Below are positions 9,006 through 36,928 of a stretch of DNA of 36,928 bases, in pieces (the first letter of the stretch is position 1; each line of letters opens with the position of its first letter). The stretch is taken from positions 1-36,928 of IMG/VR virus record IMGVR_UViG_3300046003_003542. One strand, given 5' to 3'. The position numbers were made by a program, and so were the translations under genes. The notes beneath the pieces were generated by a model that saw only the letters and a list, made by a program, of their open reading frames with translations, searched no databases and was not told the DNA's origin. This DNA is from a virus.

Positions 9006-9356
9006 ATGAAACCATCAGACTTTAAAAAAATTATTAAGGAAGCCGTAAAAGAAGCTATTCAAGAGGAATTAAAAGATATCCTATTGGAAGCAGTACGTGC
9101 TCCTAAAACGGTTGTAAACGAATCAATAAGAGATACTTACGCACAACCACACATTGAAAAACCTAAACAATTAAACGCTTCTGAAAGACGCGCTATGTTT
9201 GGAGATTTACTAGAAGATATGCAAAATAATAAACCAGCAGTAACAGCATATGCTGGTCAATTTAACCCTACAGGACCTGTAGATAATGTTAACGGAACAT
9301 TACCTGCTGGAGAAGTAGGATTAGATATGATTATGGGTTTAATGAACAATAAATAA
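9006..9356 (+). CDS. Small structural-type protein with basic/acidic N-terminal helix
   Basis: This 116-residue protein has an N-terminal amphipathic helix (DFKKIIKEAVKEAIQEELKD, about 5-24) followed by a flexible middle with Pro and Asn. The C-terminus is Gly-rich and ends GEVGLDMIMGLMNNK. The helix resembles the C-terminal helix of the 34313 protein (ALKEIIKAEIKNILK) and could be a docking element. It sits between the hub and gp25 with a one-base overlap to gp25 and its own promoter-like motif, so a minor baseplate or assembly role is likely. No family recognised. Confidence 0.6.
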   Translation: MKPSDFKKIIKEAVKEAIQEELKDILLEAVRAPKTVVNESIRDTYAQPHIEKPKQLNASERRAMFGDLLEDMQNNKPAVTAYAGQFNPTGPVDNVNGTLPAGEVGLDMIMGLMNNK

Positions 9357-21591: not shown

Positions 21592-22887
21592 ATGGCACTT
21601 ACATTATCAAAAACAAACATAGTAAACGGCAATATAGTTCAAGCAGCAGATGTATCTCAAAGTATAGATGCCTTAACAGGAACAGCCGCTTATGACATTA
21701 CCATTAGTGGCTCATTAACTGTTACAGGTTCATTAAATATTAATGGAATGTTAGAAGGTACAGGAGCTAGCTATAAAACCGTTGTTATAAATGATACAAC
21801 AGGACAATTAAGATTTTCAACCTCAGGAGGTAGTGGTGCTACAGGTACATCAGGTACTTCAGGAGCTACAGGTACATCAGGTACTTCAGGAGCTACAGGC
21901 ACATCAGGTACCTCAGGTGCAAATGGTACCTCAGGTTCTTCAGGCGCTACAGGTACCTCAGGTACTTCAGGTGCTACAGGTGCTACAGGTTCAAGCGGTA
22001 CTTCTGGTACTTCAGCTCCAGGTATTACCTCAGGTACTTCCGGTGCTACAGGTACATCAGGAACTTCAGGAGCTAATGGTTCTTCAGGTTCTTCAGGTAC
22101 TCCAGGAACCCCAGGTTCAAGCGGTACTTCAGGTGCTAATGGTTCTTCAGGTTCTTCAGGAGCTGTAGGTTCAAGTGGCACATCAGGTGCTACTGGTACT
22201 GCTGGTACATCAGGAACTAGTGCTGGAGGTGGTGGATCTTCAATTTCATATAATAACGTTTCAAGATATTTTGTTACAGGTAGTGGTGCTTTTGGTACAA
22301 CTGATGGTCCAAACATGTTTGCTGTAACTTCAGCAACAGTTTATACTGGTTTATCTTGGGCACGTTCAACTACTAGTTTAACTATTGCAACTACTACAGC
22401 TACATTTTCCGTAGGTGATTGTGTAGTAATTAGAAATGCTAATGCTGATAATTTTTATACAACAGTAACATCAGTTAGTGCTGGTGTTAGTTTTACTGTT
22501 ACTACAGCTGACTCAGGTGGTACTTCAGGAACAGAAGCCGCTTACAGTGCTGCTATTAGAACAACAGCCTTTACTTCTGGAGCAGCAAATGTAACTATAG
22601 CTTGTCCTTCAGGTGCAGATGTTCAAATATTAGGATTATTAATTCAAACAGGAACTAGAGCTAGTAATGGTCCTGTTGCTATAACAATGCCTCAATCTCT
22701 TACTAATGGTGCTGGTACAGATAATGCTTTTGGAAATCAATATTTTCCAATTTTTAGGGTACAATCAAATTCGGGTGGTATTACAACAGCAGCTATGTCA
22801 ATAGAAACAGTTTCTAATTTTAATATATTTACTCTAACTGGTATGACTAGTACTCCATCTCAATTAATAAGAGTTAATTTTTCGTAA
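21592..22887 (+). CDS. Collagen-like tail fibre (431 aa)
   Basis: An N-terminal stem-binding part, residues about 1-80, contains [20 protein letters not shown], a phrase common in phage fibres. It leads into an uninterrupted Gly-X-Y collagen-like region at about 81-212, made of [12 protein letters not shown] and a few GTP/GEP-type triplets. Phage collagen-like segments form trimeric stalks, here low in proline. The C-terminal 215 residues are beta-rich and end [17 protein letters not shown], probably the tip domain. The DNA of the repeat shares exact stretches with the larger fibre downstream. A strong terminator follows the gene. Confidence 0.83.
21832..22230 (+). repeat. Collagen-like Gly-X-Y coding repeat (small fibre)
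   Basis: About 130 Gly-X-Y triplets' worth of 9-nt and longer units (GGT-ACA-TCA and relatives) with many near-repeats. The minus-strand frame across it is an artefact of the repeat. Confidence 0.85.
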
Positions 22888-22907
22888 AAATTTTTATATT
22901 AATTAAG

Positions 22908-22935
22908 AGCCCTATAATTTAGGGCTTTTTTTTTT
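22908..22935 (+). terminator. Strong Rho-independent terminator between the two fibre genes
   Basis: The stem AGCCCTA (22908-22914) pairs with TAGGGCT (22920-22926) around a 5-nt loop (TAATT), followed by a run of ten T that starts with the last base of the stem. This is the best terminator in the window. It is followed immediately by a TATTTATA motif, so the large fibre is a separate transcription unit. Confidence 0.9.
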
Positions 22936-22937
22936 AA

Positions 22938-22945
22938 TATTTATA
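22938..22945 (+). promoter_or_regulatory. Late-promoter-like motif TATTTATA
   Basis: An exact core inside the 19-mer TTTTAATATTTATAACAAA (22932-22950), identical to the copy upstream of the baseplate block. It overlaps the end of the terminator T-run and ends 21 nt before the large fibre ATG. Because it sits just past a terminator, it has to supply the transcription of that gene. Confidence 0.65.
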
Positions 22946-22966
22946 ACAAAATATATTTTTTCTATT

Positions 22967-25900
22967 ATGGCATATTATAAAAACGGAGCATTAACCATAC
23001 CATTCTTTAACGATTTTCCTAATTCGATAACTGGTAATTTAACTAATGGATCCAACATAATTACTGGGGTCAGTAACTTTAGTTATTTAACATCTTCGTT
23101 AACAGCTAGTAATGCTAATATTCCTTCAAATACATCTATAGTATCTTTTAATACAAGTTCAAATACTATTACATTAAACGGAAATGCTACAGCAACTGTA
23201 ACTTCAGCAACTATTGATTTACAAACAGCCCCAGGTACTTATTTAATTGAAAGTGCTTCTTTTTATAATGTAAATGGTAATGTTTTTGTTTCAGATGTAA
23301 CAAGTTCCGATCAATTAGGGGGCAGTGGTTCATATTGGGTAGTAACAGCTAACGCTACTGATCCTAATACTGGAAATCCATTAAATGGTATATATATTTT
23401 ATATAAAGTAACTAAAATTTTATATGCGGATGATTCTTTAAGTAAAATTAGTTTTTATGGTGCTTGGGATGCAGAAGGAACACAAGCAGAAAGTGGATTT
23501 GTACCTACAAATGCTATTACAAATCCATTTGGTTCATCTTCCCCAGAACATAATTTTACTTCATTACAAGATGATTTAGCAGGTTCTTACGCATTTCAAG
23601 CAGGAACAGTTCCTGGAGCATATAATACAGATACATTAAGTATTACAGATAATTTTCTTCAAACTCACGTATATTATACCGGTTCAACAGTAACATCACA
23701 GTTAGTTGGTGTTAACTATACTGGTTCAGGAGTTAATGTATATCAATCAGGATCAAATCCAAATAATATTTTCGTAGAAATTACAGGTGGAGGCGGTGGT
23801 AGTAGTACAAGTGGTACTTCTGGTATTTCAGGTACTTCAGGTGCTAACGGTTCAAATGGAACTTCAGGAGAAAATGGTACTTCAGGAACTTCAGCTCCTG
23901 GTATTACCTCAGGTACTTCAGGTGCTACAGGTGCTACAGGTTCAAGCGGTACTTCAGGTACTTCAGCTCCTGGTATAACTTCAGGAACTTCAGGCGCTAC
24001 AGGTGATACAGGAACCTCAGGTACTTCGGGTGCTACAGGTTCAAGCGGTACTTCAGGAGCTAATGGTTCTTCAGGTACTTCCGGTGCTCCAGGTTCTCCA
24101 GGAACCCCAGGTTCAAGCGGTACCTCAGGTGCTAATGGTGCAGAGGGTTCAAACGGTACTTCAGGTGCTAATGGATCAAATGGAACATCAGGTATTACAG
24201 GAACTTCAGGTACATCAGGAGCTACAGGTATTGATGGTTCTTCAGGAACTTCAGGCGCTTCAGGTTCTCCAGGAACCCCAGGTTCAAGCGGTACTTCAGG
24301 TGCTACAGGTTCTTCAGGTACCTCAGGCGAAAACGGAACCTCAGGCACATCAGGTGCAAATGGCTCAAACGGTACTTCAGGTGCTACAGGAACTCCAGGT
24401 TCATCAGGAACTTCAGGTATTTCAGGAGATCCAGGAACCCCAGGTTCATCAGGAACTTCAGGCGAAAATGGTACCTCAGGTACTTCAGGTATAAATGGTT
24501 CAAACGGTACTTCAGGTGCTAATGGTTCAAATGGTACATCAGGTACTTCAGGCGCTAATGGTTCAAATGGAACTTCAGGCGCTACAGGTTCAGATGGTTC
24601 TAATGGTACTTCAGGAATTAACGGAACTTCAGGCACATCAGGCGCTAATGGCTCAAACGGAACATCAGGCACTTCAGGCGAAAACGGAACTTCAGGCACA
24701 TCAGGCGCTAATGGCTCAAACGGAACATCAGGCACTTCAGGCGAAAACGGAACTTCAGGCACATCAGGCGCTAATGGCTCAAACGGAACCTCAGGCACTT
24801 CAGGCGCTAATGGCTCAAACGGAACATCAGGCACTTCAGGTGCAAATGGCTCAAATGGAACATCAGGCACTTCAGGTGCTAATGGCTCAAACGGAACCTC
24901 AGGCACATCAGGCGCTAATGGCTCAAATGGAACATCAGGCACTTCAGGCGAAAACGGAACTTCAGGCACTTCAGGTGCAAACGGCTCAAACGGAACTTCA
25001 GGAACCTCAGGCGCTAATGGCTCAAATGGAACATCAGGTGCTACAGGAACCCCAGGTTCAAGTGGTACTTCAGGTGCAGCAGGAGATCCAGGAACCCCAG
25101 GTTCATCAGGAACATCAGGCGAATCAGGTACTTCAGGTTTTATGGGTATACCAGTATTTACTCCTGTATTTTCAGATACTTCTTATGGTGTTGATTCTTC
25201 AACATTTATAAACACAGGTGGAGGTGGTAGTAGCTATGATGCTTATGCAGGTTCAACTCAATCATATTCAAGAGGAGTTTATGTGACAGCAAAAACTACA
25301 GCAGATAATATAGATGTAGCTTTTGGTTTAACTGAAAATGCATTATCCGCTGATCCAGATGATTTAAATTATTCATTTAGATTTAATAATGGTGGTAATT
25401 TTAGAATTTATGAATTAGGAACATCAGTATTAGCTGCAACTGCATATACTTTAAGTGATATTTTTTATATAACATATGATGGTTATAACGTTAGATATTA
25501 TCAAAATTCTACTTTATTAAGAACAATAGCTAGAGCAATAGGTAACCCATTAGCATTTAATTCAACTTACCTTACAAGTAATGAAGGATTTACTAATGTT
25601 GGATTTGGTCCAATGGGTGAAGCTGGAACTAATGGTACTTCAGGAAATACAGGTGCTACAGGTACATCAGGAACTTCAGGTACTAGAGGTTCTTCAGGTT
25701 CTTCAGGTACTTCAGGTGCATCAGCAGCAACAGCAATTACTAATAATGTAAATAACTATGTTGTAACTGCAACAGGTGATTCAAATACTCCATTTAATGG
25801 AGAATATAATTTAACATTTAATGGAGCTACATTAACTGTAAACGCTATAGATATAGGTACAGGTGGCGCAGGTCCAGGAAGCACTGGTGTAGGTACTTAC

Positions 25901-27010
25901 ATTTTAAGTAATAGTACCCCATCGGCAGATTTTAATACTGCTATAGGATATTGGGCCCTAAGGGATAATACAGATGGTAATAGAAATACAGCTTTAGGAG
26001 CTCTTACATTACGTTATAATACATTAGGTATTTATAATACTGCTTTAGGATATGAAACTTTAGCTTATAATCTAGCTGGTGATTATAATACTTCAGTAGG
26101 ACATAGAGCTTTATTTATTTCACGAGATAAAGATTATAATACTTCTATAGGACATGAATCGATGTATAATATGACATCTAGTTTTAATACAGCTGTAGGA
26201 TCTGATGCTTTAAGAGGTAGTGTTACAATTGCTAATAATACTGGGGCTTCAAATACTGCTATAGGATATCAAGCATTATATTCAATATCATCCGGAGCTT
26301 ATAATACAGCGGTAGGATCTTTAGCAGGTGATTTGTTAACTACAGGTGGTGGTAATACTCTTATAGGATCTGGTTCAGGAGAATCTATAACAACAGGAAA
26401 TAATAATACAATTATAGGTAAATATGCTGGAACAACAGCTTTAACTTCTACAGTAGTATTATCTGATGGTTTAGGTAATGTTCAATTATATGCTACAGGT
26501 AGTAGAGTAGCAATTAATAAAACAACAACCCCAAATGCTACATTAGATGTAAACGGTAATACTATAATCACAGGTTCATTAACAGTAACAGGAAATATTG
26601 TTAATAATTTAGGAATGGGATTTGTGAGTTGTAGTTTAACAGTAAATGGAGCAACAGCAGGAACAAGAGCAATTACAGCTTCATTTAAAGATGTAGATGG
26701 TACATCTTTACCACGACCACAACAATTAATACATTGGTGGACTAGTACAGCACAAACTGGATCAGCAGCCGTACCACCACCAGCAGTTACTAATGGTACA
26801 GTAACTACATATACAGTACTTGCAGGTACTAATGTTGTACCTATATCAAATTCAGGTTCAATTAATCACGCGGTAACAGACAATAATGGTAATTTCGTTG
26901 TACGTTTAAATGGAGGCACAGACACTCCTGCTACAATTTGGTTTAATACAGAAGTACAAGGTATAATATACTCAATAAGTACAACAATAAATACAGCAAC
27001 AGCACCATAA
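22967..27010 (+). CDS. Giant collagen-like tail fibre with lectin-like and YadA-head-like domains (1347 aa)
   Basis: Domain order: N-terminal attachment and shoulder domain (about 1-278); a collagen-like Gly-X-Y stalk (about 279-722); a concanavalin-like globular domain with DLNYSFRFNNGGNFRIYE (about 725-883); a short second collagen-like piece (about 884-920); and about ten NTA-(I/L/V)-G-x-x-AL repeats (about 988-1158) like the head of trimeric autotransporters. ITGSLTVTGNIV and a 130-residue tip domain end the protein. It is almost certainly a trimeric receptor-binding fibre. No S74 chaperone domain is present at the end, so it must fold without self-cleaving help or use a separate assembly factor. 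Its stalk DNA contains a 63-nt tandem repeat. Confidence 0.85.
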   Translation: MAYYKNGALTIPFFNDFPNSITGNLTNGSNIITGVSNFSYLTSSLTASNANIPSNTSIVSFNTSSNTITLNGNATATVTSATIDLQTAPGTYLIESASFYNVNGNVFVSDVTSSDQLGGSGSYWVVTANATDPNTGNPLNGIYILYKVTKILYADDSLSKISFYGAWDAEGTQAESGFVPTNAITNPFGSSSPEHNFTSLQDDLAGSYAFQAGTVPGAYNTDTLSITDNFLQTHVYYTGSTVTSQLVGVNYTGSGVNVYQSGSNPNNIFVEITGGGGGSSTSGTSGISGTSGANGSNGTSGENGTSGTSAPGITSGTSGATGATGSSGTSGTSAPGITSGTSGATGDTGTSGTSGATGSSGTSGANGSSGTSGAPGSPGTPGSSGTSGANGAEGSNGTSGANGSNGTSGITGTSGTSGATGIDGSSGTSGASGSPGTPGSSGTSGATGSSGTSGENGTSGTSGANGSNGTSGATGTPGSSGTSGISGDPGTPGSSGTSGENGTSGTSGINGSNGTSGANGSNGTSGTSGANGSNGTSGATGSDGSNGTSGINGTSGTSGANGSNGTSGTSGENGTSGTSGANGSNGTSGTSGENGTSGTSGANGSNGTSGTSGANGSNGTSGTSGANGSNGTSGTSGANGSNGTSGTSGANGSNGTSGTSGENGTSGTSGANGSNGTSGTSGANGSNGTSGATGTPGSSGTSGAAGDPGTPGSSGTSGESGTSGFMGIPVFTPVFSDTSYGVDSSTFINTGGGGSSYDAYAGSTQSYSRGVYVTAKTTADNIDVAFGLTENALSADPDDLNYSFRFNNGGNFRIYELGTSVLAATAYTLSDIFYITYDGYNVRYYQNSTLLRTIARAIGNPLAFNSTYLTSNEGFTNVGFGPMGEAGTNGTSGNTGATGTSGTSGTRGSSGSSGTSGASAATAITNNVNNYVVTATGDSNTPFNGEYNLTFNGATLTVNAIDIGTGGAGPGSTGVGTYILSNSTPSADFNTAIGYWALRDNTDGNRNTALGALTLRYNTLGIYNTALGYETLAYNLAGDYNTSVGHRALFISRDKDYNTSIGHESMYNMTSSFNTAVGSDALRGSVTIANNTGASNTAIGYQALYSISSGAYNTAVGSLAGDLLTTGGGNTLIGSGSGESITTGNNNTIIGKYAGTTALTSTVVLSDGLGNVQLYATGSRVAINKTTTPNATLDVNGNTIITGSLTVTGNIVNNLGMGFVSCSLTVNGATAGTRAITASFKDVDGTSLPRPQQLIHWWTSTAQTGSAAVPPPAVTNGTVTTYTVLAGTNVVPISNSGSINHAVTDNNGNFVVRLNGGTDTPATIWFNTEVQGIIYSISTTINTATAP
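23800..25137 (+). repeat. Long collagen-like Gly-X-Y coding repeat (large fibre)
   Basis: Over 440 residues of Gly-X-Y triplets, mostly [12 protein letters not shown] and GEN. The repeat is built of nested units of 9, 36 and 63 nt. It is a likely site of length change by recombination or slippage. Confidence 0.88.
24621..24789 (+). repeat. Perfect 63-nt tandem repeat inside the collagen-like stalk
   Basis: Two perfect 63-nt copies (24621-24683, 24684-24746) and 43 nt of a third before the first mismatch. The unit encodes 21 residues of the GANGSNGTSGTSGENGTSG type. The surrounding stretch uses GGC for glycine much more than the rest of the fibre, which prefers GGT and GGA. Confidence 0.85.
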
Positions 27011-27033: not shown

Positions 27034-27477
27034 ATGTGGTTATACAACAAACAAGTTATTGAAAAACTTGAGGATTTTCCTCAAGACGCTTTTGGTTTTA
27101 TATACATTACTACGCACAAACCGAGCGGAGTATCGTATATTGGGAAGAAATCGCTATATCACAACGTTAAACGCAAATTAACGAAGAAAGAATTAGCAGA
27201 GCAAACCGGCCGAGGCCGTAAACCAACAACTCAAGTAGTACAAAAAGAATCGGATTGGAAGACCTATTATGGTTCAGCCAAACCGATTCTTGAAATTTTA
27301 AAAGATGGTAAACACGATGAGTTTACTCGCGAAATCCTACAAATAGTAAACAATAAAAAACTATTAACATATTACGAATGTAAGTATCTATTTACATATG
27401 GTGTATTAGAGCATTCAGTTGAGTATTTTAACGATAATATATTAGGTAAGTTTTTTAGGAAAGATTTTGAATCTTAA
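27034..27477 (+). CDS. GIY-YIG-type endonuclease
   Basis: This 147-residue protein carries the GIY-YIG core: GFIYITTH (21-28) and SYIGKK (34-39), then the family's SDWKTYYGS element (73-81), R99-E100, and a helix with E115. This arrangement is common in stand-alone phage endonucleases often labelled putative endonuclease or Seg-like. Such enzymes cut DNA, as homing endonucleases or in host-DNA degradation. Nothing in the flanks indicates an insertion inside another gene. It follows the large fibre by 23 nt. Confidence 0.82.
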   Translation: MWLYNKQVIEKLEDFPQDAFGFIYITTHKPSGVSYIGKKSLYHNVKRKLTKKELAEQTGRGRKPTTQVVQKESDWKTYYGSAKPILEILKDGKHDEFTREILQIVNNKKLLTYYECKYLFTYGVLEHSVEYFNDNILGKFFRKDFES

Positions 27478-27518: not shown

Positions 27519-28106
27519 ATGAAACAACCATTAAACGAACAATTCCGCAGAATGCAACAACTAGCGGGTATAATTACTGAATCACAGTTCACTGAAGCTG
27601 AATCTATTACTATTGAAAAAATAGAAAAAGGTAGAGATACAGGTATGGCATTTGGTGCTATAGGAGCAGGATATATTATAACATTATCTAATGGTAAAAC
27701 TGTTAAATCGGATGATGAGGATTTATTAGAAAGATATAAAGTAATAAGAGATGGTAGAAAAGATATAGACCAATTAAATACACTATTAGTTGGTAAATCT
27801 TGGGATATAAATGAATCTCAAATCAACGAAAAAAATGAGGATTTATTATCTTTTATTAAACAAAATCAAGCTAAAGCCGCTGATGAAGTAGGAGCTATTC
27901 GTTTAGAAGATATTATGATAGATGATTTAGAGGATGTTGGAGCAACAGCAATATTTGATGATGATGAGGGTGATGAAATGAGAGGTGGAGTAGCGTTTAG
28001 ATATTCTGAGGATGTAGATGATGATTTTGAAGGTGAAAATGGTGATGCACCAAGACCTATAGAAGTAGCTGGAAAAGAATTAATGTATATTAGTTATAAT
28101 ATTTAA
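27519..28106 (+). CDS. Leader-bearing hypothetical protein, related to its downstream neighbour
   Basis: The protein has 195 residues. The ATG at 27519 is chosen over a TTG at 27486 because the N-terminus MKQPLNEQFRRMQQLAG then aligns with that of the next protein, and because a promoter-like motif lies between. An (I)-x-E site (I19-T20-E21) ends the leader. Residues about 105-118 (NEKNEDLLSFIKQN) repeat the N-terminal region of the neighbour. The body is acidic, with a DDDEGDEMRGG stretch, and ends GKELMYISYNI. The leader resembles capsid-targeting sequences of T4-type phages; this is an inference. Function unknown. Confidence 0.65.
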   Translation: MKQPLNEQFRRMQQLAGIITESQFTEAESITIEKIEKGRDTGMAFGAIGAGYIITLSNGKTVKSDDEDLLERYKVIRDGRKDIDQLNTLLVGKSWDINESQINEKNEDLLSFIKQNQAKAADEVGAIRLEDIMIDDLEDVGATAIFDDDEGDEMRGGVAFRYSEDVDDDFEGENGDAPRPIEVAGKELMYISYNI

Positions 28107-28107
28107 A

Positions 28108-28623
28108 ATGAAACAATCATTAAACGAATTTAAACGCATGCAAGAATTAGCAGGTGTTTTAAATGAAAAAAATGAGGATTTATTATCGTTTGTTAAAGAT
28201 AACGAAAATACAATATTAGATCTTATTAAAGATGAAAATATTAAAAAACTAAAAAATATTTATTCAAATAATAAAGGTAATGTAATAGCTACTCCTTTAT
28301 TTACTGATTATGAAATGGTATCATCTCCAAATGCAATGATCACATTAAATGGAAAAACGTATTCAATTAAAGATGTTACTAACAACCCAGATAGATTTTT
28401 AAATAAAACAGTTATTTTTCAATTAAACAAGGATAATCGACCTCAAAAAAGAACAATAGGGATGATTGAAGATAATGCTGTGGGTTTTACTGAAAAAAAT
28501 ATATCTAAAGGGGTTGAAATTTTATTTTCAACTTCACCAATTAAAAATGAAGGTGAGGAAGATAGATTAGGTAAAGTAAATATTAACGGTAAAAATATAT
28601 ATTGGTTAATGTATAACTCTTAA
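28108..28623 (+). CDS. Leader-bearing hypothetical protein, paralogue of the upstream gene
   Basis: The protein has 171 residues. The N-terminus MKQSLNEFKRMQELAGVLNE aligns with the upstream protein and ends in an L-x-E site (L18-N19-E20). NEKNEDLLSF follows directly, whereas in the neighbour the same phrase lies about 80 residues further in. The body is a basic, beta-rich domain (ATPLFTDYEMVSSPNAMITL ... GKTYSIKD), ending in GKNIYWLMYNS, again like the neighbour. It starts 1 nt after the previous stop and ends just before a terminator. Probably a duplicated pair that has diverged. Function unknown. Confidence 0.65.
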   Translation: MKQSLNEFKRMQELAGVLNEKNEDLLSFVKDNENTILDLIKDENIKKLKNIYSNNKGNVIATPLFTDYEMVSSPNAMITLNGKTYSIKDVTNNPDRFLNKTVIFQLNKDNRPQKRTIGMIEDNAVGFTEKNISKGVEILFSTSPIKNEGEEDRLGKVNINGKNIYWLMYNS

Positions 28624-28644
28624 AAATAAAAAATATATTAAGTT

Positions 28645-28669
28645 AAGCTTGGGAAACCAAGCTTTTTTT
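28645..28669 (+). terminator. Strong Rho-independent terminator with GAAA loop
   Basis: The stem AAGCTTGG (28645-28652) pairs perfectly with CCAAGCTT (28657-28664) around a GAAA tetraloop, and T continues to 28669. It closes the unit of paralogous small proteins before the primase gene. Confidence 0.92.
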
Positions 28670-28683
28670 ATTATATTACGGTT

Positions 28684-29613
28684 ATGCTTAATCAATCTCT
28701 AGTTGCACTGACTAATTCGGTGCTAGGTTCTGGTAAATCAACGGCAAGAGGTAACTATGCTTACCACTGTCCGCTATGTAACCACCCTAAACCTAAACTA
28801 GAGATTAATTTCACTGAAAATGATAAAGGTGAAAACCCATGGCACTGTTGGGTTTGTGATAAAAAGGGTAAAAAACTATATCAATTATTTAAAGCAGTAG
28901 AAGCATCACCTGAAAAAATGGCTGAATTAAAAGTCATTGTAAAATATGTAGGTAATGAAAAAAATGTTGTAGTTGAAACTAAACTAGAACTACCCAAAGA
29001 ATTTAAACTATTAAACAATATCCACCAATCAGACATTACTGGAAGACAAGCTATGGCTTATATCAAATCCAGAGGTATTACTGAAGAGGATATTATGAAA
29101 TATGGTATTGGTTATTGTGAAAAAGGACGTTATGCTAATATGGTTATTATACCTTCATATGATGCTAAAGGTAATTTAAATTACTTTACAGGCCGCTCAT
29201 TCGAAAAACAACCATCAGTAAAATATAGAAATCCTCAAACATCAAGAGATATTATTCCATTTGAAATGTTTATTAATTGGGATTTACCTTTAATATTATG
29301 TGAGGGTCCATTTGATGCTATTGCTATTAAACGAAATGTTGTGCCACTTTTAGGTAAAAATATACAATCAAATTTAATGAAGAAGATCGTGATGTCTTCA
29401 GTTGAAAAAATATACATTGCTCTTGACCGTGATGCCCAAAAACAGGCGTTGAATTTCTGCGAACAGCTAATGAAGGAAGGTAAAGAAGTATATCTTGTAG
29501 ACATGAAGGATAAGGATCCAAGCGAAATGGGGTTCGCCAACTTCACTAATCTAATCCAAGAAACATACCCCTTAACATTCTCGGGCTTGCTTGAGAAAAA
29601 ACTATTTTTATGA
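28684..29613 (+). CDS. DNA primase with CHC2 zinc finger and Toprim domain (T4 gp61 type)
   Basis: The protein has 309 residues. A zinc-binding part (C29, C32 and C55, C58, in YHCPLCNH and WHCWVC) starts the protein and binds template DNA. The Toprim core has E207 and G208 in LILCEGPFDA, with D211, and the D248-x-D250 pair in IYIALDRDAQKQ, which bind metal for RNA primer synthesis. The size is near T4 gp61 (about 340) and shorter than bacterial DnaG. No helicase domain is fused. The gene starts 15 nt after a strong terminator and its stop overlaps the nuclease start (ATGA), so the two are coupled. Confidence 0.9.
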   Translation: MLNQSLVALTNSVLGSGKSTARGNYAYHCPLCNHPKPKLEINFTENDKGENPWHCWVCDKKGKKLYQLFKAVEASPEKMAELKVIVKYVGNEKNVVVETKLELPKEFKLLNNIHQSDITGRQAMAYIKSRGITEEDIMKYGIGYCEKGRYANMVIIPSYDAKGNLNYFTGRSFEKQPSVKYRNPQTSRDIIPFEMFINWDLPLILCEGPFDAIAIKRNVVPLLGKNIQSNLMKKIVMSSVEKIYIALDRDAQKQALNFCEQLMKEGKEVYLVDMKDKDPSEMGFANFTNLIQETYPLTFSGLLEKKLFL

Positions 29614-30377
29614 GTACTATAAAACACTCTTACAATCGAATTTTAGAGATTTCGGATGACCATAAACAAATCACGTTACCCGATTCTCGTTTTTACAGAC
29701 GTAATGATCATTATTATCCGTCTGTTACTTATGTTTTAAGATATTACCCAAAGGGTAAATTCTTTGAAGACTGGTTAAAAAAAGTAGGTTATTCAGCTGA
29801 ATATATTGTTAAAAAAGCAGGTGAAGAAGGTACACAAGTACACGAAATGATTGAGCAATATTTGGAAGGTAAAGAAATGAACTTCCTTAACCAATTTGGT
29901 AGCCCTCAATACAGTCCTGATGTATGGCAAATGTTTCTACGTTTTGTTGATTTTTGGGAAGTTTATAATCCTAAATTAATCGAAGCCGAAGTACATTTAT
30001 TTTCAGACGAACTAAAAGTAGCAGGTACATGTGATATGTTATGTGAAATTGATGGTAAACTATGGTTAATCGACTTTAAAACATCTAATCACGTTCAACC
30101 AACATATCAACTACAAACAGCAGTTTATGGTCAGTGTTATAAAGAATGCTTTGGTAAAGAGGTCGACAATTATGGTATTTTATGGTTAAAATCAACTAAA
30201 CGTAAAACTAATAAGGAAAAAATGCAAGGTAAAGGTTGGGAGATGGTATTACCTACTCGCACACACGAAGAAAATCTTGATATTTTCCGTACTGTTCGCC
30301 GTTTATTTGATTTAGAAAATCCAAACGATGCTCCTGTATTTACTGAATTTAAAACTCAAGTTAAAAGAGAGTTATAA
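29610..30377 (+). CDS. PD-(D/E)XK nuclease, Cas4/RecB-like
   Basis: This 255-residue protein carries the family motifs in order: G-x-x-x-H ending at H78 (GTQVHEMIE), E127 in IEAEVHLFS, D142 in GTCDML, D155-F156-K157 in LWLIDFKTS, and Q169/Y173 in QLQTAVY. These form the catalytic site of RecB/Cas4-type exonucleases. No iron-sulphur cysteine set typical of Cas4 is apparent, so a RecB-like single-domain nuclease is more likely. It is translated with primase, so a role in DNA replication, recombination or end processing is likely. No CRISPR context is present. Confidence 0.85.
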   Translation: MSTIKHSYNRILEISDDHKQITLPDSRFYRRNDHYYPSVTYVLRYYPKGKFFEDWLKKVGYSAEYIVKKAGEEGTQVHEMIEQYLEGKEMNFLNQFGSPQYSPDVWQMFLRFVDFWEVYNPKLIEAEVHLFSDELKVAGTCDMLCEIDGKLWLIDFKTSNHVQPTYQLQTAVYGQCYKECFGKEVDNYGILWLKSTKRKTNKEKMQGKGWEMVLPTRTHEENLDIFRTVRRLFDLENPNDAPVFTEFKTQVKREL

Positions 30378-30385
30378 TATTTATA
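30378..30385 (+). promoter_or_regulatory. Late-promoter-like motif TATTTATA
   Basis: An exact core starting at the base after the nuclease stop codon, in ATAATATTTATAACG, ending 12 nt before the ATG of the kinase gene. It probably starts the unit of leader-bearing proteins from here onward. Confidence 0.58.
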
Positions 30386-30397
30386 ACGAAAACAAAA

Positions 30398-31201
30398 ATG
30401 GTGAGTTTATTAAGGTTATTAAATGAGATTAAAGGTAACCCTAAAGCTCTTATTCTTGCTGGAGCTCCGGGTGCTGGTAAAGGATCTATATTACGGGGAT
30501 TAAATTTAGGTGGTTTAAAAATTTTTAATTTAGACGACACTATTGCCGCGTTATCTAAATCCGATGGGTTTACTTTAAATCAAAAAGCAGCAAGTGCTGA
30601 AGATAGAAGTAAATTTGCTAAGGCAATGGCCGCAGCTACTAAAAATCTTAAAACAGAACTTATTCCAACAGCAGTTGCTAATAAAGACTCATTTGTTTTA
30701 GATGGCACTTCAGCATCATTTAAAAATACTATTGAATTAAAACAACAGTTAGAGGAAGCAGGATATGATGTGATGATGTTATATGTTTATACTGACCTAG
30801 AAACGTCTTTAGATCGTAACGAAAAACGATTTGAAAAATCAGGTGGAGAAGATAGAAGTTTATATCCAGGTGCATTATTAGGTACTTGGTTAAATGTAGC
30901 TAAAAATTTTGAAACATATCAACAATTATTTGGAGATAATTTTGTATCTGTATCTAATACAGGCAAAGATGAAACTTTAAAGGATATTGAAGCTATATTA
31001 CAAAAATATGTTTATCCATTTATTCCAAAAGACGCTAAACCTAAAACAGATAAGGAAAAAGCTAAATCTAAAGAAGCAGCAGATAAGTTAAATGCTGAAA
31101 TGACAACTTTCCTTAATTCAGATCAAACAAAAAATATTATTAATTCTTCAGTCTCAAAAGAAGAAGCACAAACTAAAATAAATAAATTTATACAATCATG
31201 A
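30398..31201 (+). CDS. P-loop kinase-like protein with short N-terminal leader
   Basis: The protein has 267 residues. Residues 1-10 (MVSLLRLLNE) form a leader ending in L-x-E, followed by a P-loop GAPGAGKGS at 22-30 after strand KALILA. A D-D pair follows in FNLDD at 43-47. DRNEKRFEKSGGEDRSLYPG gives an arginine-rich lid-like segment. The fold fits small AAA_33/zeta-type kinases. The C-terminal 60 residues are helical and lysine-rich. The substrate is unknown. The leader resembles T4 capsid-targeting sequences. Its stop overlaps the next start (ATGA). Confidence 0.72.
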   Translation: MVSLLRLLNEIKGNPKALILAGAPGAGKGSILRGLNLGGLKIFNLDDTIAALSKSDGFTLNQKAASAEDRSKFAKAMAAATKNLKTELIPTAVANKDSFVLDGTSASFKNTIELKQQLEEAGYDVMMLYVYTDLETSLDRNEKRFEKSGGEDRSLYPGALLGTWLNVAKNFETYQQLFGDNFVSVSNTGKDETLKDIEAILQKYVYPFIPKDAKPKTDKEKAKSKEAADKLNAEMTTFLNSDQTKNIINSSVSKEEAQTKINKFIQS

Positions 31202-31590
31202 AATTATTAGACTTATTAAACGAAGTAGAAAAAGAAGAAAAAGCAGCTAAAAAAGCAGCTCCTATTGAGGAAGCTGAAACAACAACTGTTGATGAAATTG
31301 GTAAATTCTTCGTTGCTAAAAAACCAACATCTAAAAACGATAAAGTTGAAGATTTAGTAGTTGAAACAAGCGTATTAGATTTTACTTCATTAGGATTAGA
31401 ACCTAAAAAATTATTAGGTATCTATAAAGATAAAATGAGTGCTAAAAATAAAGCTTCAGACGCTATTAAAGAATACGAAGTACAACTTAAGGAAATGGAA
31501 GAGGCTATGAATGACTTTAGAGAAGCTAAAAAAGGCATTGACGAAAAGAAAAAATTAGCTAAAGAAAAAATACAAAGGCTTAAACAATAA
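31198..31590 (+). CDS. Leader-bearing coiled-coil protein, unknown
   Basis: This 130-residue protein begins MKLLDLLNEVEKEE, almost the same leader as the kinase upstream (LLRLLNEIK), with an L-x-E site at L7-N8-E9. Residues about 11-40 are Ala/Glu/Lys/Thr-rich and probably flexible; residues about 77-130 form a long charged helix with coiled-coil character. There is no catalytic motif. High charge, low complexity and small size resemble T4 internal head proteins. Overlaps on both sides (ATGA upstream, TAATG downstream) tie it to the kinase and the 730-residue fusion. Confidence 0.65.
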   Translation: MKLLDLLNEVEKEEKAAKKAAPIEEAETTTVDEIGKFFVAKKPTSKNDKVEDLVVETSVLDFTSLGLEPKKLLGIYKDKMSAKNKASDAIKEYEVQLKEMEEAMNDFREAKKGIDEKKKLAKEKIQRLKQ

Positions 31591-33782
31591 TGAATTCTTT
31601 TACTAGAATATTATTAGAAGATCTTTTAGAAATAAAAAATCAGGATTATATTATTTATTTTGATATAGATGATACTTTGACTGATTATTCTAATCGTTTA
31701 GGTAATATGATTATTACTGATCCTGAAACAGGAGAAAAACGTCCTATTAAATCTACAGATACTGTTGATAATATTGAATTTTGGACTAGTGCTAAATGGT
31801 TACCTGGTTCTAAACAAATGTTTGATTTTGCTAAAAATAATTTTAGTAATGTAGAAATACTTTCTGCTGTTCCTGAATTATCTAAAGCAAATAAAGAACT
31901 AACAGGTAAAAGATTTTTTGATGATCCTATTAATGGTAAAATAGAATGGTTAAATAAAAATATAGGATCAATAAAAACCATTTGGACTAAATCTGGAAAA
32001 GAAAAAGCAATTTATGCTACTCCTAATACTATTTTAATAGATGATAAACCAGAAAATATTAAAGCATTTAAACAAGCTGGTGGTATTGGTATTTTAATGG
32101 ATACTCCTCAAAATGTTATAAATAAACTTAATGATTTATTAGAGGGAAAAGAAATAACTCAAGAGGGTATTATAGATGATACTAAATCTAAATTAAAAAA
32201 ATTTATTCTTGCTGTTAAACAAGAAGGTCAAGAAACAAGAGCAGCTGTAGGATTAATTATTAAATCAGCTAAAGGTGAAATTACTTTAACAGATGAGCAG
32301 AAAAAACAAATTGGTGAACAATTAAAAGATATTCTAAAATTAGTAGGTTTAACTGCTATTGCTACTTTACCAGGTGGATTTATTGTAGGTGCTTTAATTA
32401 AATTATTTAAAGCCGAACATTTAATTACCCCATCATCAATGATGAATGAAGATATTGATCCTCTAGAAGCAACTACATTTGTTGGTTCTGTTCAAACTAT
32501 AGTAGATGGTAAACGTGATGTTGGATATATTGCTTTAAAAAATATACCTAAAGACGAAATTGAACAAATAAAAACATTAGTTTCGGATAATAATTTAAAA
32601 ATACTTTCTGTTAAAGGTGATCAAAAACCTACTATTATATATAAAGCAGATAAAGAATTAGAAGCTAAAGAATTAAAAGATATAGCTGAAAAATATAATG
32701 GTTATCTATCAATTAAAGCTACTGAAGAAGAATCTAGAAGAATAGGTGAAATTTTAGGATATAGCAAAGAAAGTATAGATAAATACATTGAAAAACATAA
32801 AGCATCTAATATTAAAGAAATAGTAACAGCTACAGAAGTTATTTGTGATAACTGTGGTTGGGAATGGCCTATAGCAGATGGTGGTGATGACTTATATATT
32901 TGCCATAAATGTGGACATGATAATAATCCTGATTTAGAAGAAGGTAGAAAAAAGAAATCTGATCCTAAAAAAGGAACAGGTAAAAAACCAGAAGGTTCAG
33001 GTCGTAGATTATACACAGATGAAGATCCTAAAGACACAGTTAGTATTAAATTTAAAACTAAAGAAGATATTGTTGATACTTTAAATAAAACGTCTTTTAA
33101 AGCTAAACCGCATGCTCGTCAATCTCAAGTAATTAATTTAATTCATCAACGAGTAAGAGCAGCTTACGGTAAAGCAAAAGATCCTGAAGTAAAAGCAAGA
33201 TTAAAACGTGCTTTAGATTATATTGAAAAACGTAAAGAAATGTCTAAAAAGAAGACAGAACGTTTAAATAAAATGAAAGAAGCTTCTGACCCACAAGCAG
33301 GTACAGCTTTACCATATGGTTCAGGATTTGCACCCGTTAAAGAAAATGACCCGTTTGGTTTAAATGAACTAGCACGACAATTTATTGACGAAACTTTAAA
33401 AGAAACTTGGAAACCCGAGGAATCTTTCGTATCTTTATCTAAATATATGATTGACAATGGAATGAATATTAAACCATTGCCTAAAATAAAGGTTATATCG
33501 GATGATAAAGACAACGCATCCAATCTTTTGGGCAAAACAGCTTACTACAATCCTACAGAAAAATCTATTACTCTGTATACTATGGATAGACACCCAAAAG
33601 ATATATTGCGTTCGTTTGCTCATGAAATGGTCCACCACGAACAAAATTTAGAAGGTAGATTAGGTAATATTAATACTACCAATACTAGTGAAGATGGTCA
33701 TTTAGATAAAATTGAAAGAGAAGCAATTGAAATAGGGGGTATTATGTTACGTAATTGGGAAGATAGTATAAAAAATGTATAA
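31590..33782 (+). CDS. Multidomain fusion: HAD-like, LETM1-like, zinc ribbon and HExxH metallopeptidase (730 aa)
   Basis: Residues 1-16 are a leader with L-x-E sites (E10, E14). Residues about 19-190 are a HAD-like domain: D25-I-D27-D28 in YFDIDDTLTDY, and ILIDDKPEN later. Residues about 227-275 match a LETM1-like segment (EITLTDEQKKQIGEQLKDIL, then GLTAIATLPGG), with a hydrophobic stretch. A zinc ribbon has C419, C422, C438, C441 (CDNCGWEWP ... CHKCG). Residues about 453-485 (KKGTGKKPEGSGRRLYTDED) look like DUF5872. The C-terminus has H678-E-x-x-H682 in AHEMVHHEQ, with EREAIEIGG further on as a possible third ligand, typical of a zinc peptidase. Target unknown. Confidence 0.75.
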   Translation: MNSFTRILLEDLLEIKNQDYIIYFDIDDTLTDYSNRLGNMIITDPETGEKRPIKSTDTVDNIEFWTSAKWLPGSKQMFDFAKNNFSNVEILSAVPELSKANKELTGKRFFDDPINGKIEWLNKNIGSIKTIWTKSGKEKAIYATPNTILIDDKPENIKAFKQAGGIGILMDTPQNVINKLNDLLEGKEITQEGIIDDTKSKLKKFILAVKQEGQETRAAVGLIIKSAKGEITLTDEQKKQIGEQLKDILKLVGLTAIATLPGGFIVGALIKLFKAEHLITPSSMMNEDIDPLEATTFVGSVQTIVDGKRDVGYIALKNIPKDEIEQIKTLVSDNNLKILSVKGDQKPTIIYKADKELEAKELKDIAEKYNGYLSIKATEEESRRIGEILGYSKESIDKYIEKHKASNIKEIVTATEVICDNCGWEWPIADGGDDLYICHKCGHDNNPDLEEGRKKKSDPKKGTGKKPEGSGRRLYTDEDPKDTVSIKFKTKEDIVDTLNKTSFKAKPHARQSQVINLIHQRVRAAYGKAKDPEVKARLKRALDYIEKRKEMSKKKTERLNKMKEASDPQAGTALPYGSGFAPVKENDPFGLNELARQFIDETLKETWKPEESFVSLSKYMIDNGMNIKPLPKIKVISDDKDNASNLLGKTAYYNPTEKSITLYTMDRHPKDILRSFAHEMVHHEQNLEGRLGNINTTNTSEDGHLDKIEREAIEIGGIMLRNWEDSIKNV

Positions 33783-34323
33783 ATTAACAGATCTATATAA
33801 ACAAATTAAAGAGGAAGCTACTGAAGGTCCTCAATCACAATATAAAATTTATTGTGATATGGATGGTGTTTTAGTTGACTTTGATAAAGGTTATCAAGCA
33901 TTAACAGGTAAAGAAACACACCACGTTGATGTTCAAGGTAAAAACGAATTTTGGGATGCTTTTAGAAGTGGTCTTGAAAATAAAAAAATGCAAGAAAAAG
34001 ACTATTGGGCAAACTTACAATGGATGCCTGATGGTAAAGAATTATGGGATCATATTAAACAATATAAACCCACATTACTTTCAGCGCCTTCTAGAGATCC
34101 ACAATCACGTTGGGGTAAACGTATTTGGGTTAAGAAAAATATCCCAGGTACTCCATTGATTTTAGCATACGCTGAAACAAAAAAGAATTATGCTAAAAAG
34201 GATTCAATACTTATAGACGATAGAGCTTCTAATATTTCTGACTGGAATGCAGCTGGAGGTATTGGAATTTTACATACATCAACAGCAACAACATTAGATA
34301 AATTAAGCGAATATGGCATTTAG
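33775..34323 (+). CDS. HAD-superfamily phosphatase/nucleotidase-like protein with leader
   Basis: The protein has 182 residues. The leader MYKLTDLYKQIKEE has an I-x-E site (I11-K12-E13), followed by a spacer and the HAD core: D28-x-D30 in YCDMDGVLVDF, S103 in LLSAPS, and D148/D149 in SILIDDRASN. The compact size and lid fit 5'(3')-nucleotidase-like phosphatases. The ending GGIGILHTSTATTLDKL resembles the HAD end of the 730-residue protein (GGIGILMDTPQNVINKL), which suggests a duplication. It overlaps both neighbours (8 nt and 11 nt). The substrate is probably a nucleotide but this is not proved. Confidence 0.8.
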   Translation: MYKLTDLYKQIKEEATEGPQSQYKIYCDMDGVLVDFDKGYQALTGKETHHVDVQGKNEFWDAFRSGLENKKMQEKDYWANLQWMPDGKELWDHIKQYKPTLLSAPSRDPQSRWGKRIWVKKNIPGTPLILAYAETKKNYAKKDSILIDDRASNISDWNAAGGIGILHTSTATTLDKLSEYGI

Positions 34324-35214: not shown

Positions 35215-35831
35215 TGACAACACTATCAATGATAACAACTATTATTGTGGCTCTTATAACAGCCGTAATTGGACCATTAGTAATGACTTGGGTACAATTA
35301 AAATTAGCAAATAAACCAAAAATATCACCTGTTAAAGAAGCAATTGATTTAAACGAATTAGTCGATAATCAATTAGATATGATGATGGATGAATTAGATT
35401 GTAGTAGAATATGGATTGGACAATTCCACAATGGTGGACATTTTTACCCAACAGGTAAATCAATCCAGAAATTTTCTATATTTTACGAAAAATTAACTCC
35501 AACAACGTCTGCAATTCAGCATATATTCCAACAAATCCCCGTATCATTATTTCCAAAAGCATTGTCTAAATTATATAAAGACGGCGAATTAGGTATTGTT
35601 AATTATGATACTGACGAAACATATGATTTAAGTATGTTTGCTAAAGATTATAATACTAAATCTTTTTATATGTTAGCCATAGATGATTTAGATGATCATT
35701 TTATTGGTGTAATGGGTATTTCATTTAATGACAAAGAACATAGATTATCCAAAGAAGAATGGATATTTATACGTCAGAAGGTGGGTGCCATTGGTTCTCT
35801 ATTAACCGGATATTTAAATAAGAAAAAATAA
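35214..35831 (+). CDS. Membrane-anchored GAF-like protein
   Basis: This 205-residue protein has one N-terminal membrane segment (about residues 5-28), then a cytoplasmic body: CSRIWIGQFHNGGHFYPTG, then SIFYEKLTPTTSAIQHIF, then SFYMLAIDDLDDHFIGVMGI. The strand-helix layout and the start and end of this body suggest a GAF-like sensory fold, although I cannot confirm it. No kinase or cyclase domain follows. It is coupled to both neighbours by TAATG overlaps. A phage-coded membrane sensor or an inner-membrane exclusion protein are possible; neither is shown. Confidence 0.6.
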   Translation: MTTLSMITTIIVALITAVIGPLVMTWVQLKLANKPKISPVKEAIDLNELVDNQLDMMMDELDCSRIWIGQFHNGGHFYPTGKSIQKFSIFYEKLTPTTSAIQHIFQQIPVSLFPKALSKLYKDGELGIVNYDTDETYDLSMFAKDYNTKSFYMLAIDDLDDHFIGVMGISFNDKEHRLSKEEWIFIRQKVGAIGSLLTGYLNKKK

Positions 35832-36928
35832 TGAAAGACTTAGAAAAAATTAAAGAATTCTTTTTAAAAGATAGAGCAATGACTGCAGCTTACGAAGGTA
35901 ACACAGAATATTTTAAACCCGTAATTCGTAAGGATAAAAACTCCCCATCTATTTTATATGTTGATATAGCTTACCCAGAAGGTTCAGGCGTTTTATCTAT
36001 TGGTGGATCTAAAACTATGTCGGGTCAAGATAGAGAAACAGGTGCTGAAAAAGCAATGAAAGATGGTGAAAAAATTAGACAAATATTATTATCAAAATAT
36101 AACATTGAAGATAGTGATGTAAATGATTTAAAAAATGGTATAGTACAAGTATTTGCCGTATCAGATGATTTTGCTAAAATGTCTACTCCTTCATTAAATG
36201 AAAACTTTCCAGGCCCAGGTGAAGTAGTAGATGCTAAATATCTAAATAATGCTATGTTAGATTATTTTAACAGAATGAATATTAAATTATTGATTAATAC
36301 TAAAACTGAAAAAGGAATTAAAGGTGGTGTTGGTACAATGTATGGTGATTTAGTTTTTAATGGAGACGATATCAAGTTAAAAGATATTGTAAGTGTTGAA
36401 ATTATAGAATCATCAATAAGTGAAGCTAAAAAAGAAGATAAAGTAGATACCATCACAATGGATGTTCCTTTGTTTATTCGTATGTTAGAATATTCAAGAG
36501 AAGATGCTGCTGAGGATATGGATTTACATGATGTTACTGAAAAAGCAATTTCATTAGGTAAAGAAAGAGGTATCTTACAAATGGATGATTATGATGAAAT
36601 TATAGGTACTACTGAAAAAGTAGTTAAAGAAGAAGTAAGTTTTCTTTCTTTAAAAGATGATAATCCATTTGATGATATCCCTTCAATAGAAATTCAACTT
36701 ATAGACGATAAAGAAGGCATTAGCTCTCCTAAGGCATTTGTAAATATTAGTTCTATGGGTCATGGTGGTGAAAACGGTAAAATGGAAATCCTAAAAAACA
36801 ACCCAGCCTTACAAGATAAGGTAATGAAAGAACTACAAATAGAATTTCAAAAAACATTTAGAAGAGTTATCCATAGTATATTAGGAGAACCATTTGGATT
36901 AGATGAGAAAAAAGTTAAAGCTGAAAAA
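35831..36928 (+). CDS. Phage-conserved-type protein, 3' end outside window
   Basis: The frame is open from ATG 35831 (overlapping the previous stop as TAATG) to the last base, giving 366 residues without a stop. The first 120 residues contain SILYVDIAYPEGSGVLSIGG. Residues about 211-260 (DVPLFIRMLEYSREDAAEDM ... LGKERGILQMDDYDEIIG) match a segment I associate with DUF5661-like structural or packaged proteins of T4-like phages, though this is from memory. A later part has QLIDDKEGISSPKAFVNISS. No leader of the (L/I)-x-E type is evident at the start. The product continues beyond the window. Confidence 0.65.
   Translation, partial: MKDLEKIKEFFLKDRAMTAAYEGNTEYFKPVIRKDKNSPSILYVDIAYPEGSGVLSIGGSKTMSGQDRETGAEKAMKDGEKIRQILLSKYNIEDSDVNDLKNGIVQVFAVSDDFAKMSTPSLNENFPGPGEVVDAKYLNNAMLDYFNRMNIKLLINTKTEKGIKGGVGTMYGDLVFNGDDIKLKDIVSVEIIESSISEAKKEDKVDTITMDVPLFIRMLEYSREDAAEDMDLHDVTEKAISLGKERGILQMDDYDEIIGTTEKVVKEEVSFLSLKDDNPFDDIPSIEIQLIDDKEGISSPKAFVNISSMGHGGENGKMEILKNNPALQDKVMKELQIEFQKTFRRVIHSILGEPFGLDEKKVKAEK

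Follow-up and report, generated by a model that had tools for sequence, protein, structure and literature searches.

The stretch of DNA analysed here (the window) is a 36.9-kb viral fragment, IMG/VR record IMGVR_UViG_3300046003_003542, positions 1 to 36,928, which carries baseplate wedge genes (9356, 9763), tail fibres, a primase, an exonuclease and a block of small and mosaic genes, and which ends before its own head genes. Within this block, proteins with unrelated bodies begin with short leaders that end in (L/I)-x-E. A preliminary description of the window had listed six of them and had likened them to the capsid-targeting sequence (CTS) of phage T4, proposing that the proteins are packaged into the head and ejected with the DNA. 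All six leaders were confirmed, and the protein at 35831 is, from its sequence, a probable seventh. The leaders and the proteins that carry them are as follows.

27519..28106, + strand: cargo candidate 1, body without known family
27519..27581, + strand: its LAG-type leader MKQPLNEQFRRMQQLAGIITE, predicted cut after ITE; independent E-value (iE) 0.0033 with a hidden Markov model (HMM) of scaffold C-terminal tails only
28108..28623, + strand: cargo candidate 2, body without known family
28108..28167, + strand: its LAG-type leader MKQSLNEFKRMQELAGVLNE, predicted cut after LNE; weak match to the scaffold-tail HMM; leader included in the training set of the cargo HMM
30398..31201, + strand: zeta-toxin/PezT-like P-loop kinase, by Pfam, PDB profile and fold matches
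30398..30427, + strand: its short T4-CTS-like leader MVSLLRLLNE (L4, L7, L8, E10); 29/29 homologous N-termini
31198..31590, + strand: Lys/Glu-rich probable coiled-coil protein
31198..31224, + strand: its short T4-CTS-like leader MKLLDLLNE; 47/47 homologous N-termini
31590..33782, + strand: mosaic fusion of HAD, middle helical module, zinc ribbon, basic module and HExxH metallopeptidase-like module
31590..31631, + strand: its leader MNSFTRILLE(DLLE); similar leaders on another enzyme in homologous loci
33775..34323, + strand: HAD 5'-nucleotidase-like (NT5C) protein
33775..33813, + strand: its leader MYKLTDLYKQIKE; leaderless homologs occur among the loci
35831..36928, + strand: mosaic protein, truncated by the window end
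35831..35896, + strand: its probable, diverged leader MKDLEKIKEFFLKDRAMTAAYE, from homolog N-termini

The mechanical open reading frame of the first protein opens at TTG 27486, and the ATG at 27519 was preferred because homologous leaders begin at the same Met. Most homologs of the 35831 protein begin MKD(I/L)QKIKEFFS(K/Q)PxxE, from which the window copy has diverged. The nuclease at 29610 had been taken as a leaderless contrast; it does hold I-L-E at residues 11-13, so the contrast is not a clean one, although in its family the motif falls below the conservation threshold.

Leader sharing by unrelated bodies was far above chance. Related loci were gathered with two queries, the primase and the 31590 protein (about 80 loci each), and genes were called in 12 related records, the distant G006 being excluded from most counts. 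When 32-residue segments from 1,216 proteins in 285 body families were compared, pairing only proteins whose bodies are non-homologous, the N-terminal segments yielded 99 different-family pairs of at least 30 bits, versus 1, 0 and 0 at three internal positions. At the C-terminus, 6 family pairs reached at least 30 bits, the strongest of which include low-complexity tails. N-terminal sharing split into the leader group and a separate signal-peptide group, which provided an internal positive control; the leaders were accordingly rejected as Sec signal peptides, ordinary signal peptides clustering apart from them.

The leaders also appear to be portable between unrelated enzymes. Closely similar leaders, of the form M(N/D)xLTK-LLEDLL, stand ahead of a HAD domain in the window and in one homologous locus (L042), and ahead of a nucleotidylyltransferase-like domain (GGGFKPPTKGH) in more than 10 relatives. 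Within this clade there are HAD family members that carry a leader, while in other contigs members of the family start 2-10 residues before the catalytic DMDG.

The short leaders reproduce the geometry of the T4 CTS. The leader of T4 IPII and IPIII reads MKTYQEFIAE in the T4 record, and mutants of the T4 CTS have assigned residues 4 and 7 to targeting and residues 8 and 10 to processing (PMC9026906). Among 29 distinct N-termini of the 30398 kinase family, position 4 was always Leu, positions 7 and 8 always Leu or Ile and position 10 always Glu, while position 9 took seven different residues. Similarly, all 47 distinct homologous N-termini of the 31198 family had L(-6), L/I(-3), L/I(-2) and E(0). 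The T4 spacing (hydrophobic residues at 4 and 7, L/I-x-E at 8-10) is exact in 30398 and 31590 and one residue shorter in 31198; the 33775 leader departs from it with 13 residues and a different -3 residue, and the LAG leaders with 20-21 residues. In its general form, M-x(1-5)-hydrophobic-xx-hydrophobic-[LI]-x-E, the pattern matched 111 of 1,759 proteins, versus 12.4 in shuffled N-termini (maximum 22) and 0.68% at internal Met. It recovered IPII and IPIII in T4 stretches and was not enriched in stretches of phi38:1 (0/71) or SPO1 (1/50). In the AlphaFold model of 30398, the body had a mean pLDDT (predicted local distance difference test) of 89, residues 1-10 a mean of 52, and residues 9-11 fell below 50. 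The claim that the leaders behave like T4 capsid-targeting propeptides was supported. Family conservation of [LI]xE at residues 7-24 (17 of 124 families, versus 4-12 in internal windows) was dropped as a stand-alone test because it is non-specific, [LI]xxE also giving 17.

The phage belongs to a T4-related group infecting Bacteroidota. Judged by major capsid protein, the closest relatives that are cultured or named are Flavobacterium phage vB_FspM_immuto (56%) and Microcystis phage Mel-JY01 (49.5%), followed by LR756508, a huge uncultured phage (49%), and Rhodothermus phage RM378 (36%). PF03420, the gp21-type S77 protease family, was found above the family cut-off in 11 of the 23 related records searched. 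In immuto, gp070 is the head maturation protease (phrog_207, E 6e-53) and gp066 the major head protein (E 7e-71); a block syntenic with that of the window is bounded by the tail fibres on one side and the terminase-portal-protease-scaffold-capsid cluster on the other. The related record G020 carries homologs of 31590, 33775, 34645, 35214 and 35831 in the window's order, with protease, scaffold-position and capsid genes about 18-20 kb downstream of them. The S77 proteases of relatives (e.g., L168:19243-19857) themselves have [LI]xE near residue 20, with a variable central residue, in 12 of 12 N-termini, which is compatible with self-processing.

The long leaders, at 27519 and 28108, have the form RMQxLAGI(I/L)xE and match the last ~20 residues of a presumed head scaffold, reciprocally by HMM. 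The gene of this protein lies between those of the S77 protease and the major capsid protein; from this position and from its acidic composition, the protein is presumed to be the scaffold. It ends for example in KNPIVESNEMVNRFQKLAGII (G002) and KEIISEVSEQVSRWQKLAGIIK (immuto). A scaffold-tail HMM was built from tails picked by a position rule (seven rows, two of which are a distant protein and a mis-picked one). Over 1,733 proteins, cargo N-termini came next after the scaffolds, with E from 7e-5, the 27519 protein being found at 0.0033. Conversely, an HMM of 22 cargo leaders found scaffold C-ends at 7.0-19.8 bits, 0-2 residues from the end, versus 5.2 for the best shuffled sequence. The tail is conserved in Mel-JY01, LR756508 and RM378, where the scaffold-position protein ends in the related DLERIKRLAGL. 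Potential cut sites adjoin the module on both kinds of protein: in each of the 13 scaffold tails aligned, among them those of Mel-JY01 and LR756508, an [LI]xE site precedes the Arg of the module by exactly six residues, and most LAG cargo has (L/I)xE just ahead of the module and [LIV]xE after it, the gap from site to Arg being three residues in most cargo versus six in the scaffold. Candidate substrate peptides for the immuto protease gp070 are ILSEQFRRMQKLAGIITE-SQF and PKEIISE-VSEQVSRWQKLAGIIK. In immuto, gp083 (111675) carries a leader with a predicted cut after ITE, and cuts after an N-terminal Glu are likewise predicted for gp082, gp087, gp092, gp076 and gp077. Sampled T4-type gp22 proteins end in tails that, by eye, are similarly shaped (e.g., MAAYLKAARTNR, MAQYLKALDRWS).

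Some further proteins were noted in this respect. Immuto gp067 (L241:35627-36868), which sits between head protease and capsid protein with a scaffold-type tail, is annotated as a 'DNA polymerase phi-like protein', probably a misannotation. In the 484-kb uncultured LR756508, whose scaffold-position protein ends RMQKLADIS, an apparent LAG leader MDKSRFQELAGVLSE occurs at L248:2322-2609. Finally, a 168-residue protein outside the head cluster of a 128-kb record (G004:124159-124665, L189) ends in the scaffold-tail-like NEDYQKRQWQHRAGIIK, as a weak match (iE 0.25).

As for the bodies, the preliminary description had guessed a set containing a kinase, phosphatases and a protease. Judging from profiles, 30398 is a zeta-toxin/PezT-like P-loop kinase: Pfam Zeta_toxin matched above cut-off (E 1.7e-16), PDB profiles matched zeta 1gvn and PezT 2p5t, and fold matches included 3q8x and 2p5t among other P-loop kinases (TMq 0.41-0.53). 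The 33775 protein is an NT5C-type HAD, and 31590 joins several unrelated domains in one chain, namely an N-terminal NT5C-type HAD, a zinc ribbon and a C-terminal HExxH metallopeptidase-like module. Relatives extend the repertoire in the guessed direction by an ART-PolyVal ADP-ribosyltransferase, recalling T4 Alt: the protein at L168:4055-5002, whose N-terminus MNLQKLVKEVLDE follows the T4-CTS pattern, contains this domain (PF18760, 1.2e-8, above cut-off). Pfam searches on further tagged relatives gave mostly no matches, with DUF5661, DUF5872 and ART-PolyVal being found, and defence-system profiles run on the cargo gave one weak BrxA match and nothing further.

In the fusion proteins, the same motif recurs where modules meet. 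Module boundaries were defined by BLAST in a non-redundant set of 70 mosaic proteins related to 31590 and 35831, and the expectation was obtained by circular shift. Boundaries within 6 residues of [LI]xE amounted to 203 of 549, versus 89 expected (raw z 13.5). A smaller effect persisted when values were averaged over 185 boundary classes, which removes repeated modules, both for [LI]xE (0.246 versus 0.162, p 0.003) and for [LIVM]xE (0.348 versus 0.236); the control motifs [LI]xD, [LI]xK, [LI]xxE, [LI]E and [FYWAG]xE showed no class-averaged enrichment at joints. In 31590, homology most commonly breaks at residues 181-189, 287, 405-408, 447-452, 583-585 and 611. Its [LIVM]xE sites near joints are at residues 185, 287, 410, 451, 585 and 605, with P1 codons ending at nt 32144, 32450, 32819, 32942, 33344 and 33404. 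The AlphaFold model of this fusion was left unused, its mean pLDDT being 45.6 because mosaic homologs misalign. Leader modules were also seen inside cargo-like proteins, as two LAG copies in L110:12192-13526 and as KKKLKAQIKEMILAELNED within L117:14772-16268, which suggests joined cargo genes.

Elsewhere in the window, two tail-fibre-like proteins with long collagen-like G-T-S-G repeats occupy 21592-27010. For the gene at 27034-27477, the top PHROG label is 'NAD synthetase', and homing endonuclease families also match; this label looks wrong, and the gene beside the primase in Mel-JY01 is annotated GIY-YIG. A small protein at 9006-9356, directly before the gp25-like wedge gene, has a conserved helical N-terminus, MKPSDFKKIIKEAVKEAIQEELKDILLEA; the leader pattern fits it, and its neighbours are baseplate genes.

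Taken together, the leaders are quite probably T4-type capsid-targeting propeptides, some of which share a scaffold-tail module, cut by an S77 protease. From a mechanistic point of view, they would attach newly made proteins to the prohead core during head assembly; the gp21-type protease would then cut after [L/I]-x-E and so set the enzymes free within the head, from which they may be ejected together with the DNA. Short leaders would act like the T4 CTS, hydrophobic residues at -6 and -3 serving for targeting, and L/I at -2 with Glu at 0 for cutting. Long leaders would be a copy of the scaffold's C-terminal tail (module RMQKLAGI), by which cargo takes the tail's partner, most likely the inner face of the shell and less likely scaffold, portal or protease; cut sites beside the module would release scaffold and cargo alike. 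Fusions such as 31590 may enter the head as a single chain with a single leader and then be cut into modules at their [L/I]-x-E joints. We give an even chance to the fuller proposal, in which the packaging signal is the shell-binding tail of the scaffold, transplanted with adjoining protease sites onto the N-termini of unrelated enzymes, polyproteins being loaded under one tag and cut in the head, and new injected effectors arising by module shuffling at protease sites. The interpretation given in the preliminary description is partly supported, and our sequence comparisons go beyond it on two points, the match of long leaders to the phage group's own scaffold tail and the cut motifs at the joints of fusion proteins.

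Several observations weigh against the propeptide reading. The motif [LI]xE is common and is weak evidence alone, [LI]xxE scoring the same (17/124 families). The T4-CTS pattern also matches the terminase (MSQDLKQIIREEY); it is therefore not specific for each protein, and some tagged-looking proteins are false. The short leaders showed no significant similarity to the scaffold N-terminus, and a copy of that N-terminus was rejected as their source. On the scaffold side, the 28108 leader matched weakly (iE 0.63), the proposed scaffolds of immuto, G002, Mel-JY01, RM378 and LR756508 gave no PHROG head-scaffold match (a control, cyanophage gp22, matched at 3.6e-114), and the available sequence of G005, G007, G012 and G020 has the scaffold tail but no LAG cargo. 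The preliminary description had looked to a gp21-like protease gene alongside the head genes; it is present in relatives, as given above, and PF03420 had no match in the window, a 36.9-kb fragment without head genes, so that we infer the phage's own protease and scaffold from relatives. Likewise, we infer the binding partner, packaging, cleavage, ejection and host role; packaging and cutting are predictions, and no published virion proteomics of immuto-like phages was found in the papers searched.

Among the alternatives, it is rather unlikely that the leaders are packaging tags in which the likeness of LAG module and scaffold tail reflects two substrates or docking sites of the S77 protease and not a common shell or core partner. 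Both modules are indeed flanked by [LI]xE sites, and the T4 literature suggests mixed protease and core contacts (PMC9026906); however, other predicted substrates, namely the short leaders and the major capsid protein propeptide NQAKQLVxE, have no LAG module, and the module is therefore not needed for cutting. That the leaders direct assembly into another particle or compartment (tail, membrane, chaperonin) seems improbable. The MKPSDFKKIIKEAVKEAIQEELKDILLEA class of helical N-terminus does adjoin baseplate genes, but the LAG leaders match a protein encoded between head protease and major capsid protein, the tagged genes cluster in a block ahead of the terminase-to-capsid cluster, and the leader geometry is that of a proven head-targeting sequence, the T4 CTS.

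Very improbable, finally, is an origin without function, by chance, as generic amphipathic N-termini or through recent DNA duplication of gene starts. The frequency of [LI]xE alone, and the recent DNA copies of the leader carried by G003 and G010, speak for it. Yet leader sharing, T4 geometry and pattern counts exceeded controls by large margins, and Glu is invariant while the neighbouring position varies. The two leaders at 27519 and 28108 differ in codons, which indicates conservation at the protein level, and recent duplication was rejected as the source of leader similarity since codons differ in most cases. The controls thus contradict chance for the set as a whole, although single proteins could still be chance matches.

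If the propeptide reading holds, the leader sequence provides a rule by which head-packaged and probably injected proteins can be picked out from the many genes of uncultured phages that have no known function, and the position of joints at protease sites hints at the way in which multi-enzyme injected proteins are built up and set free. The closest known system is the T4 CTS of IPI-IPIII and Alt, cut by gp21. As in T4, unrelated bodies carry a short leader at the N-terminus, in which positions 4, 7 and 8 are hydrophobic, position 10 is Glu and the cut motif is L/I-x-E; relatives have an S77 protease with the head genes and an ADP-ribosyltransferase among the cargo. Unlike in T4, there are more leader classes, one of which, the long LAG class, matches the C-terminal tail of the scaffold; the cargo comprises kinase, HAD, nucleotidylyltransferase-like and metallopeptidase-like modules and multi-site fusions. 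What is new relative to T4-type propeptides is, on our best reading, this scaffold-tail class of leader, together with polyproteins whose joints lie at protease sites. In the T4 literature consulted, the CTS is described as having affinity for the prohead core, and the bound site is not named; a tag copying the scaffold tail suggests how head cargo is captured and would give, for one phage group, a concrete and testable answer, in which cargo and scaffold share a partner.

Scaffolds of P22 and herpesviruses have C-terminal shell-binding tails, that of herpesviruses being released through a protease site immediately ahead of it. By analogy, the C-terminal scaffold tail described here is a likely shell-binding element; it differs in that the module also stands at the N-terminus of unrelated cargo, and its shell binding is putative. 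In phiKZ and SPN3US, the propeptides of inner-body and ejection proteins are removed by the prohead protease, some at multiple sites (PMC5694885, PMC10052503), but they are mostly 111-254 residues long, and the SPN3US motif is A-x-E, in contrast to the short [LI]xE leaders here; when the 2017 paper appeared, no scaffold counterpart was known in that system. Polyvalent proteins (Iyer, Burroughs, Anantharaman and Aravind, 2017; PMC5512222) are multidomain phage proteins, with peptidase and ART domains, predicted to be packaged and injected. Their processing was ascribed to their own metallopeptidase, whereas the joints described here coincide with prohead-protease motifs.

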